A stretch of DNA of 40,889 nt from positions 1 to 40,889 of the forward strand of contig JAFMVD010000054.1 of assembly GCA_025499625.1 (NCBI GenBank), read 5' to 3'. Below the pieces are notes generated by a model, which saw nothing but the letters and a program-made list of their open reading frames with translations, did no database searches and was not told the DNA's origin. The position numbers were made by a program, and so were the translations under genes. Below, piece by piece: positions 16,734 to 26,234 of the stretch. This DNA comes from Carboxylicivirga fragile. GTDB taxonomy: Bacteria > Bacteroidota > Bacteroidia > Bacteroidales > Marinilabiliaceae. How positions within the stretch are numbered: position 1 is the stretch's first letter; each line of letters starts with the position of its first letter.

Positions 16734-16890
16734 CGTTTTGACTATCATGATAAATAGCAGTCAGGATAACTTGTAAAAAATTAATTTTCATTTTTTCTCA
16801 ATAAAATTCTCGTTTCTGAGGGATAAAAAATAAAAAATTCGTTTTTTAGCATTTCTTAACACATCAAAGACTTTTAAGCAAACCAAAATT

Positions 16891-18675
16891 ATGCAAGAAC
16901 TAAACGAATTTTTAAAATTAATTGATTCATATATTGGTAGTCATCTGTGGTTTGTATGGCTATTGCTCGGTACAGGTATCTTTTTTACCATCTATCTGAA
17001 ATTCCCACAAATACGTTTTTTTAAATATGCTTTACGCATTGTTCAGGGAAAATTTGATAAGGAAGATGATGAGGGAGATACTTCCCACTTTCAGGCTTTA
17101 ACAACCGCGCTTTCGGGAACCGTAGGAACAGGAAATATTGCTGGAGTGGCTTTGGCAGTGCATATGGGTGGGCCAGCTGCTTTATTTTGGATGTTGGTAA
17201 CTGCCATGTTGGGTATGACCACAAAGTTTGTTGAGGTGACGCTTTCGCATAAATACCGTGAGAAAGTTGCTGATGGTTCAATGGCAGGTGGACCAATGTA
17301 TTTCATGAAGGCGCGTCTGAACATCAAATTGTCTTCGGGTAAAATGCTGAATACGGGTAAATGGATCGCCATTGTTTTTGCCCTAGCTACCGTTTTGTCT
17401 TCGTTTGGTACAGGTAGTTTACCTCAGATTAATAGCATATCCAACTCCATATTTGCCACCTTTGGTTTACCGCACATGTTAACAGGTTTTGTGTTAGCTA
17501 TATTATTAGGTTTTGTTATAATTGGTGGTATAAAACGTATAGCAAAGGTGACATCGAAGTTGGTGCCTGCTATGGCATTACTCTATTTTATCGGAGCTAT
17601 TTCGGTTATTGCTTTTAATTATGAGAATATTTGGCCGTCTATTCAAGCCATCTTCGCCGATATATTTACAGGTTCTTCCGCAACAGGTGGATTTCTGGGA
17701 GCAACCATAGCATTTGCATTTAATCGCGGAGTAAACCGCGGTTTATTTTCTAATGAGGCAGGACAAGGGTCTGCGCCAATTGCGCATGCCGCGGCTCGTG
17801 CACACGAACCTGTATCGGAAGGTCTGGTTGCGTTATTAGAACCATTTATTGATACCATCATTATTTGTACCCTAACAGGTTTAACCTTATTGGCTTCGGG
17901 TGTTTGGAACGAAAAATTGGACAACCGTTTCCAGTTAGCCGACCTGCAAGTATTGCAAGGTGTGCATTATGAAGATGTAAGTGATAATGGTAGAATTCAG
18001 CTAGCCAATCATATTAACGGAGAAGAGAGTTTGCCACTTTTTACTGGTATACTTAGTGTTGAAGAAGGGTTGATAACATCAGATGTTAAAGTTGTACACG
18101 CTCGTTCTTTGGCCGAAAATGTTAAGGTTCAAAAGGGAGGTACTCCATTTACAGGTCATATTGATGTGATGAATGGTGTGGTTAGTTTGAAAGATGATAC
18201 GGCAGAGCCTGAATCGTTTATGGATAAAATAAAGGCACAATTCTCATCTGAGCCAAGTAATAAAATAGTTATTCGGGGTAAATCATTAGTACATAGTGCA
18301 CCACTTACCACTGTTGCCTTTACCAAAGGCTGGTTTGGCCATTGGGGTCAATACATTGTATCAATTGGATTACTATTGTTTGCCTTCTCAACAGCTATTT
18401 CCTGGTCGTATTATGGCGATAGGGCAGTTACCTATTTATGGGGACCCAAAGCGGTCATTTGGTATCACATGATCTATGTAGTTGCATTCTTTTTGGCTTC
18501 CTTTGTTGACACAACAATCATTTGGACTTTATCGGGTATTACAATTGCATTGATGACCATTCCAAACTTGATTGGTTTGTTATTCCTGCATCGTGAAATG
18601 AAGGATGAGGTAAAATCGTTTTGGGTGGAATACCGCCAGCGTTTTCCGGATGAAAAACGTGTACCAAAAGACTAA
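16891..18675 (+). CDS. Alanine/glycine:cation symporter (AGCS) family transporter with large loop insert
   Basis: An inner-membrane Na+- or H+-coupled importer of small amino acids. The family signature is clear: [19 protein letters not shown] near 68-86, a long run of membrane helices, and [21 protein letters not shown] near 281. At 594 aa it is well above the usual 450-500. The excess is a hydrophilic segment at about residues 340-470, between the helix ending LLASGVW and the one starting near [16 protein letters not shown]. The insert has beta-strand-like, glycine-containing stretches and no motif I know. The gene ends 22 bases before the sigma-factor gene, so readthrough into the regulatory genes is possible. 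It may take up amino acids freed from the same substrate, but housekeeping use is equally likely. Confidence 0.92.
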
Positions 18676-18697
18676 TAATAAAGGTTTGTGTTAATTT

Positions 18698-19237
18698 ATG
18701 TCTGATAAAATTGTATTGGCAGATATAAAGAACTTTGAAGAGTTCTTCATGGAGCACCATCATGCTATGGTGCTCTATGCCTATAAATTTGTTAGAGATA
18801 AAGATCTGGCAATGGACATTGTGCAAGATGCATTTACCCGACTTTGGGAAAGCCGGAATGAAGTGCTTATAAAAGTATCTGTCACTGCTTATCTCTATAA
18901 AACCGTATACAATCTTTGTTTGAACCACATAGAGCAGCAAAAATTACATAGTCAACATCATCAGGCAATTTCTCTTGAATTAAGGGAAAAAGAGCTTGAT
19001 TATTTTAATGGGGAGACGAGCTTACTTCAAAAAGAAACGGCTAGCGTAATTGCATCGGCGGTTAAAGAATTACCCGAAGACTACAAGCAGGTAGTTGAAA
19101 TGAGTCGTTTTGAAGGCTTAAAGAACAAAGAAATTGCTGAAAAATTAAATATTCCACAACGTACTGTAGAGACTCGTATTTATCGGGCAATTAATAAGTT
19201 GCGCGACTCCTTACGTGATTTTGTAAATAAAAATTAA
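18698..19237 (+). CDS. ECF sigma-70 factor (FecI-like, Bacteroidota PUL type)
   Basis: A protein of 179 aa. Region 2 occupies ~12-80 (MVLYAYKFVRDKDLAMDIVQ, DAFTRLWESR). Region 4 occupies ~120-172 (ELPEDYKQVVEMSRFEGLKN, then KEIAEKLNIPQRTVETRIYR as the helix-turn-helix). It directs RNA polymerase to promoters of the neighbouring susC/susD genes when released by the FecR protein encoded 70 bases downstream. The RNA near its start can form a nine-base-pair hairpin (18752-18775). It follows the AGCS symporter gene by only 22 bases. The exact promoter it recognises is unknown. Confidence 0.93.
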   Translation: MSDKIVLADIKNFEEFFMEHHHAMVLYAYKFVRDKDLAMDIVQDAFTRLWESRNEVLIKVSVTAYLYKTVYNLCLNHIEQQKLHSQHHQAISLELREKELDYFNGETSLLQKETASVIASAVKELPEDYKQVVEMSRFEGLKNKEIAEKLNIPQRTVETRIYRAINKLRDSLRDFVNKN

Positions 19238-19307
19238 AAATTCTTTCATTTTGTTGACGTAGTTTTTCGTACTTGTCTGTCATGCTATATAGAAAGTGAA
19301 ATGACAG

Positions 19308-20285
19308 ATGAACGAATTGAACGAAATAGAGCAGATTATTATTCGCCACTTGGATAACACTGCAACGGAATCCGAGTTAAAGCGATTAAATAATTGGCTT
19401 GAGGAGGCAGAGGAGAACAGGAAACATTATCACGAGATGAAGGATGTGTGGGATGCCACACCATCTGTTATTGGGCATGAAAAATCACAGAAGCAGTGGA
19501 AGAAGTTAAATCAATCTCGATTAAGGTCGATCCCATTCCGTAGAATTTCCATCGAATTGATTAAGGTGGCAGCTGTTGCTGTAATTGCGCTTATGGCTGG
19601 ATATTTCTTTTTTGAAGTAGCTGATGAGGATGTTCATTACGCAACAATTGAAGTGCCGTATGGCTCTAAATCTACACTCAAATTACCTGATGGAACTAAT
19701 GTGACATTGAATGCCGGATCCAAGTTGGTATACCCAAGTAATTTTTCAGAAAAGGAAAGGAATGTTGAGTTATCAGGCGAAGCTTATTTTGCGGTAGAGC
19801 ATAATCCCAAAAAACCTTTTGTGGTTAATGTAGATGATTTGGAAGTAAGAGTTTTGGGTACAGAGTTTAATGTGATGGCTTATCCCGAATTTAAACGAGT
19901 TGAAACTACTTTAGTATCGGGTAAGGTCTTACTCAATCGTAAGGGATTTGCTTATGATGATGGTATAATTTTAAAGCCTGGTCAAAAAGCAACTTATGAA
20001 AATAATGGCTTAAAGATTCAATGGGCTAATATTGAGTTAGAATGTAACTGGACTCAGAATGAGTTTTATTTTGAAAGTATACCTTTTAATGAGTTAATGA
20101 CACGTTTGGAAAAATGGTACGATGTTACCATTGAATACAATAAAGAAGATTTTAAAGACCTTACATATACAGGTAAATTTAGAAATGAAGAAACTGTATG
20201 GCAGGCATTTGATGCCATACGGATGACCACGCCAGTGGATTATACAACTGAGCATAGAAAAGTATTTATAACATTGAAAAAATAG
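19308..20285 (+). CDS. FecR-type anti-sigma factor
   Basis: A protein of 325 aa in the inner membrane. The cytoplasmic N-terminal ~75 residues (EIEQIIIRHLDNTATESELK, NNWLEEAEENRKHYHEM) bind the sigma factor. One membrane helix lies at ~84-102. The periplasmic FecR domain spans ~110-210 (IEVPYGSKSTLKLPDGTNVT, LNAGSKLVYPSNF, GEAYFAVEHNPKKPF). A C-terminal DUF4974 domain lies at ~250-325 (FYFESIPFNELMTRLEKWYD). The periplasmic part is expected to contact the STN domain of the SusC encoded next, which turns substrate binding into sigma release. It is separated from the sigma gene by 70 bases that may hold its own promoter. Confidence 0.94.
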   Translation: MNELNEIEQIIIRHLDNTATESELKRLNNWLEEAEENRKHYHEMKDVWDATPSVIGHEKSQKQWKKLNQSRLRSIPFRRISIELIKVAAVAVIALMAGYFFFEVADEDVHYATIEVPYGSKSTLKLPDGTNVTLNAGSKLVYPSNFSEKERNVELSGEAYFAVEHNPKKPFVVNVDDLEVRVLGTEFNVMAYPEFKRVETTLVSGKVLLNRKGFAYDDGIILKPGQKATYENNGLKIQWANIELECNWTQNEFYFESIPFNELMTRLEKWYDVTIEYNKEDFKDLTYTGKFRNEETVWQAFDAIRMTTPVDYTTEHRKVFITLKK

Positions 20286-20310
20286 TTGCCTATGAGGTAA
20301 AGTAGCACAT

Positions 20311-20350
20311 ACAAAAAAAACCGGAGAGATGCGGCAACATCCTTCCGGTT
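20311..20350 (-). terminator. Strong minus-strand terminator in the fecR-susC gap
   Basis: The stem is formed by 20319-20331 and 20338-20350: seven perfect pairs (AACCGGA/TCCGGTT), a G-U pair, one mismatch and four further pairs (GATG/CATC) around a six-base loop. The run of A at 20313-20320 becomes eight consecutive U residues on the minus strand right after the stem. On the plus strand no U-run follows, so as a terminator it works only for minus-strand transcription, although no minus-strand gene is annotated here. Confidence 0.75.
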
Positions 20351-20382
20351 AAGAATAATTTTAAAACGAGTTTAAAATAAAT
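20311..20382 (-). ncRNA. Candidate cis-antisense RNA over the susC leader (DonS-like)
   Basis: A perfect Bacteroidota -7 box (TAAATTTG on the minus strand, 20394-20387) and a strong minus-strand terminator (to 20311) would produce an RNA of roughly 70 nt. It would be complementary to the susC 5' leader and end just before the ribosome-binding area of susC. Bacteroides species carry short cis-antisense RNAs at this place in sigma/anti-sigma-controlled PULs (DonS of B. fragilis is the named example), where they reduce susC/susD expression. No -33 box was visible and the 5' end is estimated, so this is a prediction from position and structure. Confidence 0.4.
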
Positions 20383-20386
20383 CACA

Positions 20387-20394
20387 CAAATTTA
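20387..20394 (-). promoter_or_regulatory. Candidate minus-strand -7 box at the susC start codon
   Basis: CAAATTTA on the plus strand reads TAAATTTG on the minus strand and overlaps the first base of the susC ATG. It is the only perfect minus-strand TAnnTTTG I saw near the antisense terminator. There is no matching -33 TTTG, and a chance match over a window this size is not rare. Confidence 0.3.
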
Positions 20395-23300
20395 TGAAAA
20401 AATTTTCTAACAGCATGGGAATGCTCTGTTCCTTTGCGAATTCAAAACAGTGGAAGATTATGAAACTTTCAATATTCCTACTGATCGTTAGTATGGTGCA
20501 TATTTCCGCATCATCTTATTCCCAATCAAAGAATTTAAACTTTACTAAAGGGCATTCAACCTTAAAAGATGTCTTTCAGGAGATTGAGCAGCAATCATCT
20601 TATACTATCTTTTATAAAGATGATCAAGTTGACTTAAATCGTGTTATTACACAGGACGTTGATGTTGCTAATGTAGATGAAGTGCTACAAGTGGCACTTA
20701 AGGGAACCGGTTTGACTTATCAGATTAACGACAAGTTAATTGTAATAATGAAAGATGAAAATCATATTGCACAACAGGTAGAAAAGAAAACCATTAAAGG
20801 TAAGGTAGTTGATAATACAGGATTTCCATTGCCTGGTGTTAACGTATTTGTGCAAGGTACTACAAATGGAACTATTACAAATGTTGATGGTGAGTTTGAG
20901 TTGGAGATTAATACAACAGATGAAAATATAGTATTTTCGTTTATTGGATTTGAAACACAGGTAGTTGCTGCTCAGGGTAAATCAAGTTTTGATATTTCTT
21001 TAATGGATGAAGCCTTTGGATTAGACGAAGTTGTTGCTATAGGTTTTGGCGTTCAAAAGAAAAGTGATTTGACAGGAGCTGTAGCATCTGTTAAAGGAGA
21101 TAAATTAACAAAAGTAGTTGCATCTAATCCCGCTGAGCAACTGCAAGGTCGAATGGCTGGTGTAAATATCACTTCAATTGGAGGTGGGCCTGGTGCAGGC
21201 ATGGATATCAAAATTCGCGGAGCAAGTACTTTAAATAATAATAGCCCATTGGTGATTATTGATAATGTTCCGGGTAGCATGTTTATGCTGAATCCAGATG
21301 ATATTGAATCGATGGAAGTATTAAAGGATGGAGCTGCCGCGGCAATTTATGGTACTGAAGCGGCTAATGGAGTTATTTTAATTACAACAAAAAGGGGTAA
21401 AGAAGGTAAAATGACCGTTAATGCTTCTGCGAAAATGGTTGTACAGAAACAAACAGAACAGCTTCAAATGTTGAATTCAAGTCAATACATGAAGGTAGCT
21501 AATATGATGTATGAAAATACGAATACATCAAAGCCACAGTTTTTATCTGAACCTTATTATTACGATACTAATTGGTTAGATGCTGTAGTGCGCGATGCAC
21601 CAATGCAAGAGTATAATGTAAGCATGAGTGGTGGATCAAAGGATATTCAATACTATGTTTCTGGTAGTTGGTTGGACCAGAAGGGTACCATTATTGGGTC
21701 AGATTTTAAAAAGGCAAATATTCGTTCTAAAATTGATTTCAAAGGAGAGTATTTTGATGCAGGGATTAATGTGAGTTATAACGAGACTGATCGTAGTAAT
21801 TTGTCGATGAGTATTAAAGAAGCATATGAAATGATGCCTATGATACCAGTATTTGATGGTTCAAGGCCGGATGGCTTTGGTTACGCCGATGATGATAAAG
21901 GAATGCTTTCTAACAATAATCCAGTTGGTACAGAGCATTTTCGCGATAGCAAATCAACAGACCAGTTTTTCAGTGGATTGGGTTATGTGACATTTGATAT
22001 TATTAAAGGACTAAATTTTAAATTTGAAGCAGGTTTAAATAATAGCAATCGTCATTCATTTTTACATCATCCTTCATATAATATTAATGAAAAGCAGATT
22101 GTACGCTATCCTCGAGTATATGAAGAGCGATCTAACTGGCGTGAAATGAATATTAATAATATACTTAATTACACAAAAGATTTCGGGGATCATAGTTTGA
22201 AATTAATGGGTGCTTATGTTGTTAAGAAAGAAACAAATGATTGGATGACTGCCAATATAAGTGGCTTTAAGAATGTATATAGTGCTGAAGGAGATGAATT
22301 AATTATTACGGAAGAACCAACAGGTTTCTTAGATGAGAGTTTTAATACCTTAGATGCAGGTCAAGATGGTGATTCATCCGTAGGTGGATCCCGCACTACT
22401 TATACGAAAACTTCGTTGTTATGGCGCTTAAATTATTCTTATAGAGGTCGTTATTTGTTTCAGGCAACGGTGCGTCGTGATGGTTCTTCTAAGTTCGGTC
22501 CAGATTCACGATACGGTACATTTCCTTCTTTTGCCTTAGGATGGCGTTTAACCGAGGAAAGTTTTATGGGTTCTCAGGATTGGTTGTCAAACTTAAAAGT
22601 AAGAGCCAGTTATGGTATTCTTGGTAATGAAAATAGTTTAGGCCTTTACGAACATATGCCTTTGATGACCAGTAGCACAGGTGAATATTTAAGTTATTCC
22701 AGAGGTGGTGGAGAAACAGTGTGGCTAGGAACTATCTCGAGAGATTTAGAAAATAGAGAATACCGATGGGAAACGACAACAACGATGAATATTGGTTTTG
22801 ATTTTGGAGTAATTAATAATAAGCTGTCTGGTTCATTGAATTACTACGATAATACAACAACTGATATGCTGGTTAATAAACCAATTCCTTCTTCAGCTGG
22901 TATTAATACTCCAAAAGTGAATTTTGGAGAAATGGTAAATAGCGGATTTGAGCTAGAATTAACTTATCAAGATAGAGTTGGAGATCTAGAGTATACTCTA
23001 TTTGGGGGTTTGAGTACCACTAAGAATGAAGTGACGAAATTAGGGAATGATTCAGAAAGTATCAGAGGTGTTGCTTTAAATTATTCGGAACACTTTGCGC
23101 ATCAAACTCGAGTGGGAGGTCCATTAGGTGCTTTTTATTTGTATCAGGTTGATGGTATTTTCCAGAATGACAAAGAAGTTAGTGATTATAATGCTAAGGG
23201 TAAAGATGGTGTTGATATCCTACCAAATGCAAAACCTGGAGACATTCGTTTTAAAGATGTGAATGGTGATGGTGTATTGAATGACGATGATAAAATATTT

Positions 23301-23810
23301 AGTGGTACTGGTATTCCTAAGGTTAATTATAGTTTTAGTATCGATGCTGCATATAAAGGTTTTGATCTATCTATCTTAATGCATGGATCAGCAGGTCATA
23401 AGATATATAATGGTAATCGTTATTATTTTGAAGGTATGCGCACGGGAAGAAATATGTTTGCTACTACTGCGAATGCATGGACTACATCGAATACTAATAC
23501 TGATATGCCGCGTGCTGCTTTTGGTGATCCTAATGGTAATAGTCGGGAATCGACTCGTTTTCTTGAAGATGGAGATTATTTCAGAATTAAAACGATACAA
23601 TTAGGATACACTCTACCAAGAGTTTGGACTGAAAAGATTAAGCTGCAAAAGGCACGCTTTTATGTAAGTGGCCAGAACTTATTTACGTTTACTAATTATA
23701 CTGGGCAGGATCCGGAAATTGGTAGGTCCGACGTGTGGAGCCCAAGTCTGGATACAGCATTATATCCAATCTCTAAAATGTACATTGCAGGTGTTCAAAT
23801 TACTTTATAA
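20394..23810 (+). CDS. SusC/RagA-type TonB-linked outer-membrane transporter with STN signalling domain
   Basis: A protein of 1138 aa. The start at 20394 gives a long basic lead before the signal peptide, common in this class; the ATG at 20460 (MKLSIFLL) would give a plain signal peptide. After cleavage (~residue 44) comes an STN domain (~48-120: FTKGHSTLKDVFQEIEQQS, FYKDDQVDLN), which signals to FecR. A CarboxypepD_reg-like beta-sandwich follows (~135-205: KGKVVDNTGFPLPGVNVFVQ). The plug has the DEVVAIGFGVQKKSDLTGAV start and the conserved SIRGA-like IRGASTLNNNSPLVIID. A ~900-residue beta-barrel runs to the C-terminus. It imports the oligosaccharide captured with SusD. The leader contains the antisense terminator described separately. 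Confidence 0.97.
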   Translation: MKKFSNSMGMLCSFANSKQWKIMKLSIFLLIVSMVHISASSYSQSKNLNFTKGHSTLKDVFQEIEQQSSYTIFYKDDQVDLNRVITQDVDVANVDEVLQVALKGTGLTYQINDKLIVIMKDENHIAQQVEKKTIKGKVVDNTGFPLPGVNVFVQGTTNGTITNVDGEFELEINTTDENIVFSFIGFETQVVAAQGKSSFDISLMDEAFGLDEVVAIGFGVQKKSDLTGAVASVKGDKLTKVVASNPAEQLQGRMAGVNITSIGGGPGAGMDIKIRGASTLNNNSPLVIIDNVPGSMFMLNPDDIESMEVLKDGAAAAIYGTEAANGVILITTKRGKEGKMTVNASAKMVVQKQTEQLQMLNSSQYMKVANMMYENTNTSKPQFLSEPYYYDTNWLDAVVRDAPMQEYNVSMSGGSKDIQYYVSGSWLDQKGTIIGSDFKKANIRSKIDFKGEYFDAGINVSYNETDRSNLSMSIKEAYEMMPMIPVFDGSRPDGFGYADDDKGMLSNNNPVGTEHFRDSKSTDQFFSGLGYVTFDIIKGLNFKFEAGLNNSNRHSFLHHPSYNINEKQIVRYPRVYEERSNWREMNINNILNYTKDFGDHSLKLMGAYVVKKETNDWMTANISGFKNVYSAEGDELIITEEPTGFLDESFNTLDAGQDGDSSVGGSRTTYTKTSLLWRLNYSYRGRYLFQATVRRDGSSKFGPDSRYGTFPSFALGWRLTEESFMGSQDWLSNLKVRASYGILGNENSLGLYEHMPLMTSSTGEYLSYSRGGGETVWLGTISRDLENREYRWETTTTMNIGFDFGVINNKLSGSLNYYDNTTTDMLVNKPIPSSAGINTPKVNFGEMVNSGFELELTYQDRVGDLEYTLFGGLSTTKNEVTKLGNDSESIRGVALNYSEHFAHQTRVGGPLGAFYLYQVDGIFQNDKEVSDYNAKGKDGVDILPNAKPGDIRFKDVNGDGVLNDDDKIFSGTGIPKVNYSFSIDAAYKGFDLSILMHGSAGHKIYNGNRYYFEGMRTGRNMFATTANAWTTSNTNTDMPRAAFGDPNGNSRESTRFLEDGDYFRIKTIQLGYTLPRVWTEKIKLQKARFYVSGQNLFTFTNYTGQDPEIGRSDVWSPSLDTALYPISKMYIAGVQITL

Positions 23811-23822
23811 AATAGCACTATC

Positions 23823-25319
23823 ATGAAGAAATATCTTATATATATATTAGTTGGCTTGATGCCAATATTGGGGAGTTGTGGTGATGATTTTTTAACCCAA
23901 ACTCCAGATGATTTACTAACAACTGAAACATTTTATCGTAATCTGTCCGATGCGGAAGCAGCTTTAGCAACCGTTTATGCTCAGATTGGTGCGTCAGACC
24001 GTTGGGATGTGACTGAGGTAAACTTTGTAGTTGAGCAATTTCGTTCAGATATGTGTATGCCTGGTCCAGATAGATATGCAGATTGGACAGCCATATCCAC
24101 TTTTACTTACACAATTGGTAACAGTCGTTTCTTTATTTATTGGGAAGATTCTTATCGCGGATTGAACCATGCTAATCAGGTAATTGAGAAAGTTGGGGCA
24201 ATGGGAGATGAGAAAATTGACCCAGAACAACGCAATCAAATTGTTGCTGAAGCAAAATTCTTACGTGCATTTCTACATTTTCGCTTATTAAATAATTGGG
24301 AGAAGATTATTTTAAAAGAAAAGGCACCTACCAGTGCAGAAGAGTTATCACAAGGTGTTAGTGAACGCTCTGTGGTTTGGGCACTTATTGAATCAGATTT
24401 GATTGATGCAGCTAATAATTTACCAGAAACGCAGACCAAAGAAAATACTGGTCGCGCAACAAAAGGTGCAGCCATTGGGTATTTGGGAAAAGCTTTATTG
24501 TATCAAGGGAAGTGGTCCGAAGCTGCTTCAGAGTTTAAGAAATTAGTTGATGATGGTGTTGGTGAATATGATTTAGTGGACGATTATAAATCAAATTTTG
24601 ATGGATCAAATGAGAATAATGAAGAATCACTTTTTGAAATTCAATATTCGCCGGTGCGTTCTAATGGACGTCATATTGGTCATGTACTAGGTAAATTTAC
24701 TTCTGCCAGTCAAACTGGTGGTTGGGGAAATATTGAAGCAACTTCCAACATAGTAGATGAATTTAAGTCGGAAGGTATGATTGCTACAACAGGATTGTAT
24801 GACACTAGAATGTATGAAACATTGTTTTTTGATGATCCTAATATAGACGTATTTGGAGAAAGTTTTAAAGATGTTTTTGGTGATTCAGAACAAATAATTT
24901 ACCGTAAATATACTTTGTCAGATCGACCAGAGAGTGATAATGATCCATGGTATTCTTCTCAAAATGTACCAACTATGCGATTCGCAGATGTATTATTGAT
25001 GTATGGTGAAGCCTTGAATGAATCAAGTTCTGCTGATGCTGCCAAACCGCATGTTGACCGTGTTAGAGCACGAGCTGATATGCCTGCATTGCCTAGTGGT
25101 TTGAGTAAAGAAGATATGCGCCAAAGAATTATTCATGAGCGTGCTGTTGAACTTGCATATGAAGGTCATCGATTCTTCGATTTACGACGATGGGATCCTA
25201 ACTTACTTGAATCTAAGATGCAAAACAGTGGTAAGCCTGGGGCAGATAACTTTGTTTTATCAAATCATGCTTATTTCCCAATTCCCGAAAGTGAAACTAA
25301 CACTAATGAGGAATTATAG
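23823..25319 (+). CDS. SusD/RagB-type nutrient-binding outer-membrane lipoprotein
   Basis: A protein of 498 aa. The lipoprotein signal ends LGSCGDD (Cys ~20), followed by the acidic DD export-type start common to surface lipoproteins. The SusD N-terminal region FLTQTPDDLLTTETFYRNLS, then AEAALATVYAQIG, and TPR-like helices (NHANQVIEKVG, EAKFLRAFLHFRLLNNW) are typical. So is the C-terminal RagB region (RFADVLLMYGEALNE, HERAVELAYEGHRFFDLRRW, ending FPIPESETNTNEEL). It forms the lid of the SusC pore and binds the glycan. It starts 12 bases after susC stops, a certain co-transcript. Confidence 0.97.
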   Translation: MKKYLIYILVGLMPILGSCGDDFLTQTPDDLLTTETFYRNLSDAEAALATVYAQIGASDRWDVTEVNFVVEQFRSDMCMPGPDRYADWTAISTFTYTIGNSRFFIYWEDSYRGLNHANQVIEKVGAMGDEKIDPEQRNQIVAEAKFLRAFLHFRLLNNWEKIILKEKAPTSAEELSQGVSERSVVWALIESDLIDAANNLPETQTKENTGRATKGAAIGYLGKALLYQGKWSEAASEFKKLVDDGVGEYDLVDDYKSNFDGSNENNEESLFEIQYSPVRSNGRHIGHVLGKFTSASQTGGWGNIEATSNIVDEFKSEGMIATTGLYDTRMYETLFFDDPNIDVFGESFKDVFGDSEQIIYRKYTLSDRPESDNDPWYSSQNVPTMRFADVLLMYGEALNESSSADAAKPHVDRVRARADMPALPSGLSKEDMRQRIIHERAVELAYEGHRFFDLRRWDPNLLESKMQNSGKPGADNFVLSNHAYFPIPESETNTNEEL

Positions 25320-25418
25320 TTGTGACTTTTTATATGTGTCCTAATATTTTAGTCTATTTTAATAAAAAATAGATTTAAGTAAGGGCATAAAGTTTATCAA
25401 TACTTAAAAAATAAAAAA

Positions 25419-26234
25419 ATGAAGCAATTAAATATATATATAATTCCTCTTTTAGTTTTGATCTTTGTATGGTCGTGCGATACAAAGGATATTGAAGATA
25501 TAGAACAAGAAGTGCCCGTAGTTGTATGGGAAGCTGATATCTATAGAGCTAATATAATACTGGAGCCTTATGCTGAAAAGATTGATCCTGTAAATGTGCG
25601 TTTATTTGGTAAATCAATAGCGTCAGATGTAAAGGTAAGCATTGAAGTTGATGCTGCAACAACTGCTATTGAAGGGACTGAATTTACAATAGAAAGCAAG
25701 AATTTGGTAGTAGTCGCTGGTTCTAATTTTGTGGAAGTGCCATTTGTTATTGATGCTCAAAAACTGGAAGCGGATGTTGAGAAAAAGGTGGTTTTAAATA
25801 TCACGACGGTAAGCGGTGCACGAAATTCAAAGACTACCTCAACAGTTGTTCTAAATAAGATTAACTACGATGTATCGGGTTGGGCTGGAGATTATACATT
25901 CGAAGGTGACGGTTGGACTCGTGATGCTTCAGTTAAAGCGACTGGAACTCCATACGAATTAGTAATGAATAGTTTCTGGGGTAATGGTTTGGATATGGCT
26001 GGAACCGTGGATGCTACCGATCTTAATAATCTACGTTTTATTGTTCCAGCTGGTACAAAATTGGATAATGGTTGGGATGATAAAGGAGCTTGGTGGTTAG
26101 CAACTGATTTAATTGCTACTATGGATGAAGATGGTAAGGTGATGGATTTCATTCAGTTCGATTATGTTTGTGATGATGGCACCGAAGGAAGTTTCCCATG
26201 GTGTTCTGGTAATTGTACCATGACTATGAATTAA
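25419..26234 (+). CDS. Unrecognised surface-type lipoprotein, likely glycan-binding partner of SusC/SusD
   Basis: A protein of 271 aa with lipoprotein signal (IFVWSCDTKDIEDIEQE, Cys ~20) followed by an acidic stretch, as in exported surface lipoproteins. Residues ~38-145 look like a beta-sandwich of the Calx-beta or DUF1735 kind (VNVRLFGKSIASDVKVSIEV, TTAIEGTEFTIESKNLVVVA, VEKKVVLNITTVSG). The C-terminal ~120 residues are rich in Trp and Gly (YDVSGWAGDYTFEGDGWTR, FWGNGLDMAG, DDKGAWWL) and end with three cysteines in a short span (VCDDGTEGSFPWCSGNC). I do not recognise the C-terminal half. Its position after susD and before a strong terminator suggests a surface glycan-binding protein. Confidence 0.65.
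   Translation: MKQLNIYIIPLLVLIFVWSCDTKDIEDIEQEVPVVVWEADIYRANIILEPYAEKIDPVNVRLFGKSIASDVKVSIEVDAATTAIEGTEFTIESKNLVVVAGSNFVEVPFVIDAQKLEADVEKKVVLNITTVSGARNSKTTSTVVLNKINYDVSGWAGDYTFEGDGWTRDASVKATGTPYELVMNSFWGNGLDMAGTVDATDLNNLRFIVPAGTKLDNGWDDKGAWWLATDLIATMDEDGKVMDFIQFDYVCDDGTEGSFPWCSGNCTMTMN

Follow-up and report, generated by a model that had tools for sequence, protein, structure and literature searches.

The gap between fecR and susC

The window, that is the whole stretch of 40,889 nucleotides analysed here, contains a PUL whose genes for an ECF sigma factor, a FecR anti-sigma factor, a SusC-type receptor and SusD follow one another on the plus strand (Table 1). All listed ORFs of at least 200 aa between 7153 and 37836 are also on this strand, as the first-pass annotation had stated. 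Downstream of susD come a protein that matches no Pfam family, an M6 peptidase ending in a T9SS sorting tail and a NAGLU-type glucosaminidase; farther along are encoded a LysO exporter, a beta-galactosidase of GH2 and a GH63-like enzyme. A sulfatase is also encoded in the region 15309-37836, besides the glucosaminidase, the peptidase, the beta-galactosidase and the GH63-like enzyme; sulfated amino-sugar glycans or glycoproteins would fit this enzyme set as substrates. The SusC N-terminus (20394-20462) displays an extension of about 22 residues before a signal-peptide-like stretch, MKLSIFLL, which starts at the second in-frame ATG near 20460, a layout common to many relatives.

Table 1. Genes and features at the locus (positions in the window)
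Feature	Position	Strand	Basis or remark
ECF sigma factor	18698..19237	+	Pfam Sigma70_r2, Sigma70_r4_2
FecR anti-sigma factor	19308..20285	+	Pfam FecR, FecR_C; stop codon 20283-20285
CCTATG	20289..20294	+	motif 5' of HP1 in 31/114 family leaders
Predicted antisense RNA, ~68-71 nt	20313..20383	-	5' end near 20380-20383, 3' end in U-tract; from box and terminator positions
U-tract of terminator (A8 on plus)	20313..20320	-	A-run of at least five at 74/114 main hairpins in the family
HP1, terminator hairpin	20319..20350	-	loop UUGCCG on minus, CGGCAA on plus at 20332-20337
HP2, weak AU-rich hairpin, not a twin of HP1	20358..20378	-	loop 20366-20370
-7 box TAAATTTG (TAnnTTTG)	20387..20394	-	overlaps A of susC ATG
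SusC-type TonB-dependent receptor with STN domain, putative antisense target	20394..23810	+	Pfam STN, CarbopepD_reg_2, Plug
SusD	23823..25319	+	Pfam SusD_RagB, SusD-like_3

On the plus strand the gap presents successively the fecR stop codon, A8, HP1, HP2, CAAATTTATG and the susC ATG; on the minus strand the order becomes the TAAATTTG box, HP2, HP1 and U8. In the latter direction HP1 has the form of an intrinsic terminator: the hairpin is GC-rich and a U-run comes after it. The first two U of this run pair with AA at the base of the stem, which leaves six free. On the plus strand, the sequence beyond HP1 reads TTAAGAAT and has no T-run. The minus strand of 20311-20381 folds at -18.7 kcal/mol (z -4.06), none of 200 shuffles being as good, and for 20300-20400 the z score is -2.83 on minus and -3.46 on plus. 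A simple terminator scan of 18000-26000 returned three sites (4.2 expected from shuffles), HP1 not among them, probably because of an interior mismatch in its stem. The Rfam 15 covariance models gave no match at gathering score in the window and none up to E 1 within 20200-20500.

The box corresponds to the TAnnTTTG element lying at about -7 in sigma-ABfr promoters. This motif is frequent in the window (22 occurrences on minus, 24 on plus), so that TAAATTTG taken alone is weak evidence. As for the TTTG element at about -33, no enrichment of CAAA was found 11-45 nt into susC among 67 dereplicated leaders; in Flavobacterium johnsoniae the -33 element is reported not to have been found either. 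The main elements of the first-pass annotation are thus recovered: a hairpin with eight U on the minus strand only, a minus-strand TAnnTTTG at the susC ATG, a promoter match weakened by the missing -33 box, and a predicted RNA of about 70 nt, to which box and terminator positions give about 68-71 nt. A single locus is nevertheless only suggestive of an antisense RNA.

Conservation of the arrangement and strand of the hairpins

FecR matches (E up to 1e-10) were found in 63 of 71 genomes of the family; a first scan of genome contigs with the SusC protein gave no relatives. Among the matches listed, we assembled 141 stretches downstream of fecR: 13 from the window's own genome, 28 loci (L024, at a contig end, was dropped and L014 duplicates the window) and 100 others chosen approximately by rank, with some listed matches of lower rank left out. 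A usable susC start was present in 131 of the 141, a gap of at least 50 nt in 124 of these and a hairpin in 116 of the latter; the ten stretches without a start usable by the script include L040, by eye a leader of the twin-loop kind described below, and seven gaps were shorter than 50 nt. Leaders remain related to each other even after dereplication.

The main (strongest) hairpin (n=114) is preceded by an A-run of at least five, read as U on minus, in 74 cases and followed by a T-run of at least five in one. Internal controls do not display this bias: the second hairpin has A5 in 6/75 and T5 in 3/75, and random 10-mers have A5 in 7%. Strong hairpins occur in 46 of 81 dereplicated family leaders (45 in a second count) versus 0.2% of shuffled ones, with A5 in 32 and T5 in none of the 45; in control upstream regions they are found in 6/127, with A5 in none and T5 in two of these. 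A plus-strand terminator of the sigma-fecR unit was considered and rejected, given the single T-run among 114. The window's own orthologous set comprises ten leaders (the window and nine relatives) with GATG-CGGCAA-CAT in common. All ten carry the box; their A-runs measure 8, 6, 6, 5, 5, 4, 4, 4, 4 and 3, while T-runs do not exceed 4. The minus-sided tract that the first-pass annotation proposed to look for in relatives therefore holds in the family at large but is modest in half of the orthologues, a U-tract of at least five being present in 5/10, window included; a plus-strand tract, which would have contradicted that annotation, was not seen.

The box is equally recurrent. CAAANNTATG is found at 98/124 family fecR-susC starts (81/104 distinct upstream 20-mers) versus 2/135 control ORFs. 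Both control hits come from the window, one being the susC studied here and the other the symporter gene at 16891. The second match (16884-16893) covers the start of a sodium:alanine symporter gene. For 72 leaders picked because they carry the box together with an A-rich stretch, RNA lengths were predicted with a median of 84 nt (quartiles 77 and 94.5), close to the 78-128 nt reported for DonS-type RNAs (PMC7366714).

Since the window's own HP1 stem has one wobble fitting each strand, the strand on which the hairpins are selected was read from relatives. To give neither strand an advantage, only Watson-Crick pairs were used to define stems in 178 dereplicated leaders; the finder did not register the window's own stem. 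Of the single interior mismatches, 97 were A.C on plus and hence G.U wobbles on minus, 9 were G.U on plus, and 38 were of other kinds. For comparison, the A-rich composition of the gaps alone would favour A.C about 1.6-fold by our own arithmetic, and in 17 control hairpins whose own strand carries a T-tract the mismatches were GU in 7 cases and AC in 2. The signal belongs to the first hairpin (89 minus to 4 plus), the second having no clear strand preference (8 to 5). Moreover, HP1 is more stable on minus in 109/131 leaders, on plus in 18 and equally so in 4. The wobbles are independent of the U-tract and, from these stem letters, point in the same direction, minus, for HP1. Comparison between genomes thus establishes the DNA architecture and the strand of HP1 selection.

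Three other explanations of this architecture have to be weighed. It seems improbable that only the terminator matters, HP1 acting as a fence against stray minus transcription into fecR and the sigma gene, and the released RNA being functionless. Such a role agrees with the strand signal being in HP1 and not in HP2, and with the report that many antisense start sites of B. thetaiotaomicron may be spurious (PMC7366714). Yet the box keeps a constant place at the start codon, which implies that antisense start and stop are kept together, and a fence does not require the loop agreement between HP1 and HP2 observed in a subset of leaders (see below).

Alternatively, CAAANNTATG could be the translation start context of these susC genes instead of a promoter, the antisense start lying elsewhere. 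A-rich start contexts have reportedly been described in Bacteroidota, and both the coincidence of CAAANNTATG with the start codon and the missing -33 element would agree with this. However, the family starts have C fixed at -7 and T at -1 but leave -3 and -2 free, exactly the degenerate positions of TAnnTTTG, whereas in control ORFs these two letters reach 16% (C at -7) and 36% (T at -1), and we regard this explanation as quite unlikely. A plus-strand role of the hairpins, in which they would give the susC leader a structure for stability, attenuation or protein binding, is very unlikely: the plus fold does beat shuffles (z -3.46), HP2 has no strand preference and RbpB and FopS bind a ~77-nt susC leader in B. 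thetaiotaomicron (PMC11697453), but HP1 wobbles, the one T-run 3' of the hairpin among 114 and the greater stability of HP1 on minus all go the other way.

The hexamer CCTATG lies within 70 nt of HP1 in the leaders counted in Table 1, mostly at 21-39 nt. The family stretches contain 34 copies versus 0-4 for each of five rearranged or reversed hexamers; it is possibly an element of the sense (ECF) promoter, or a short-ORF start.

Outside the family, 40 stretches of Butyricimonas synergistica yielded 29 dereplicated leaders, 11 of them with a strong hairpin, of which 8 have A5 and none T5. This 4.8-Mb genome (G072) has at least 100 FecR_C matches and provides a good single-genome leader set. In Odoribacter and other loci the arrangement is partly present, being absent from many of their gaps. 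A Bacteroides-type genus provided 28 long-enough gaps of 40 fetched, all from two genomes with visibly orthologous loci. The box is present in 12 of the 28 and absent from 16; a strong hairpin is present in 15, with A5 in nine and T5 in none, and absent from 13; wobbles are 12 to 1. In another locus (L359, genome G489), the gap after fecR is occupied by a cluster of GC-rich palindromic repeats of the ACACCCGGGTGT type.

Leaders with two like loops

New here is a minority of leaders in which, judging from the letters, two hairpins share one loop (C-NNN-AA on plus) on different stems. Among 56 dereplicated two-hairpin leaders, the loops share at least 8 letters in 10 and at least 6 in 14, one of which (L033) looks accidental, versus means of 0.33 and 1.9 when loop partners were shuffled (maxima of 1000 shuffles 3 and 6). 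The pattern TGCNNNAACA ... TGCNNNAACA ... CAAANNTATGAA, which does not require the two NNN to agree, was found at 12 places in 10 of the 71 family genomes, some being one leader in sister species, and its reversed control at none; both NNN agree in 11 of the 12. In the named collection it gave 51 loci with agreement in 39. Six loci were set aside as chance (L056, L082, L085, L087, L088 and L094): L088 has equal NNN within a direct repeat, the other five differ in NNN. For the unique leaders from both searches, the NNN agree in 36/43, with ten different triplets, or in 37/49 if the six are restored.

The two triplets also appear to change together. Outside the loops L092 and L105 have 99% identity, yet the first carries TCT/TCT and the second TCC/TCC, and further joint switches separate L084 from L105 (87%), L065 from L071 (83%) and L078 from L083 (83%). 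Exceptions are L060/L086 (95%; TGT/TGT versus TCC/AGC) and L044/L053 (87%; GCC/GCC versus GCC/ACC). Among pairs of leaders with an identity of at least 68% outside the loops, 51 have the same triplets, 288 differ jointly in both loops and 121 differ in another way, in a set where pairs are not independent and orthology is uncertain at lower identities. Loops of an inverted type are found in L005, L007 and L184, the box and the U-tract being retained in L005 and L007. L006 and L007, both from the window's genome, are twin leaders; the window locus is not. Of the loops of 131 first hairpins, 37 are C-NNN-AA and 8 inverted; the remaining ones are different, 45 of them having 7 letters.

Several figures need to be read with their sampling. 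A pairing of 98.6% was obtained on 46 of 69 sequences, hand-picked for TG..CA around the loop and all found through pairing, and is therefore largely by construction; a figure of 20/47 takes in leaders found by the twin pattern itself. Loops are shared between the HP1 of paralogues in 8/274 comparisons within genomes and in 323/8241 between genomes, so that avoidance of equal loops between paralogues is not supported in this set, which counts against the letters serving as locus addresses.

When a sense RNA simply pairs with its antisense RNA, every loop meets its own complement regardless of sequence, and equal loops thus need a further reason. One would be that the sense polymerase first makes HP1 and the antisense polymerase first makes HP2, two different hairpins that must yet pair: at twin loci, HP1 of the mRNA would kiss HP2 of the antisense RNA when the polymerases converge. 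We tentatively propose, as a doubtful but possible reading of these letters, that some of the PUL antisense RNAs of Bacteroidales use a three-letter loop code, in which twin loops (UU-NNN-G on minus) change together while their stems drift, allowing such cross-kissing. If this covariation is real, the mechanism would be directly testable by altering loops or swapping them between loci. A full-text literature search, outside of which most subscription journals lie, gave no mention of equal loops in PUL antisense RNAs.

The equal loops could also be read by a partner acting in trans, an sRNA or a protein, instead of by the locus's own antisense RNA. Self-complementary sense-antisense pairing indeed does not need them, FopS sRNAs are reported to work in trans at susC start regions (PMC11697453) and further copies of a locus's own loop octamer in its PUL are slightly frequent, 13 being seen over 38 loci versus 7.9 expected. 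We give this possibility little weight, since loop letters differ by locus, which one general partner would not follow, and the three inverted-type leaders, two of which keep box and U-tract, also speak against it. A single protein reading the loop of one strand was considered as well and is unlikely, because loops vary by locus and some are carried on the other strand.

A candidate antisense RNA and known systems

Taken together, these comparisons of DNA sequences make it likely that the gap harbours a gene for a PUL-associated cis-antisense RNA (DonS type), outside Bacteroides. The first-pass annotation had suggested a DonS-like RNA from this one gap, and the suggestion gains strength from the box at 98/124 starts, the tract at 74/114 hairpins and the wobbles of 97 to 9.

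Transcription, pairing and repression are what we infer from this architecture, as follows. The housekeeping RNA polymerase would initiate at the -7 box laid over the susC start codon; the minus transcript would cross the susC leader, form HP2 and then HP1, and end at HP1 and its U-tract before reaching fecR. The resulting RNA would be complementary to most of the susC 5' UTR: HP1 begins 75 nt before the susC ATG, and one susC mRNA 5' end of B. thetaiotaomicron is placed about 77 nt before ATG (PMC11697453), so that a leader of this type would be mostly covered. Pairing would start by loop-loop kissing with the same hairpins of the susC mRNA and extend into a duplex, upon which translation would be blocked or the mRNA degraded. 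Output of susC and susD would then remain low as long as the sense transcript driven by the cognate ECF sigma factor is not abundant enough. The signature itself (U-tract on minus, -7 box on the ATG and hairpins with minus-strand wobbles) could be used to search environmental relatives for such RNAs from DNA sequence alone.

For the mechanism, the nearest working model is FinP/traJ of F-like plasmids, used here by analogy only and with no relationship claimed. FinP is described as a 79-nt RNA with two stem-loops and a U tail, acting by kissing loops (PMC8136791, PMC9977716); it requires FinO, unlike the model proposed here. The FopS sRNAs of B. thetaiotaomicron (PMC11697453) are alike in base-pairing control at the susC leader but are described as trans-encoded paralogues, unlike a cis antisense RNA.

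The closest class remains that of the DonS-type RNAs of Bacteroides, reported as 78-128 nt long, divergent to susC homologues and lowering their expression (PMC7366714). In B. thetaiotaomicron, 32 PUL antisense RNAs are listed from transcriptomes, correlations with susC being negative and also, which speaks against the present reading, positive for some, and their authors call for functional work (PMC10994844); the mechanism of DonS is termed unknown in a further report (PMC11697453). We liken the window's candidate to this class by description in these papers (original report Cao et al. 2016), not letter by letter. Like it, the candidate lies opposite the leader of a susC homologue, divergent to it, in an ECF/anti-sigma PUL, as given by Pfam matches and positions, and may share the size class and the sign of control. 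A promoter and terminator of its own on the opposite strand are suggested by the conserved signature of -7 box and terminator, without -33 box, both RNA ends being predicted. The length predicted in the window, about 70 nt (68-71), falls slightly below the 78-128 nt reported, the median being 84 nt in the 72 leaders picked from the wider set. The host is also different, a Carboxylicivirga of the Marinilabiliaceae and not a Bacteroides. The same DNA signature is nonetheless present in gaps of the Bacteroides-type genus.
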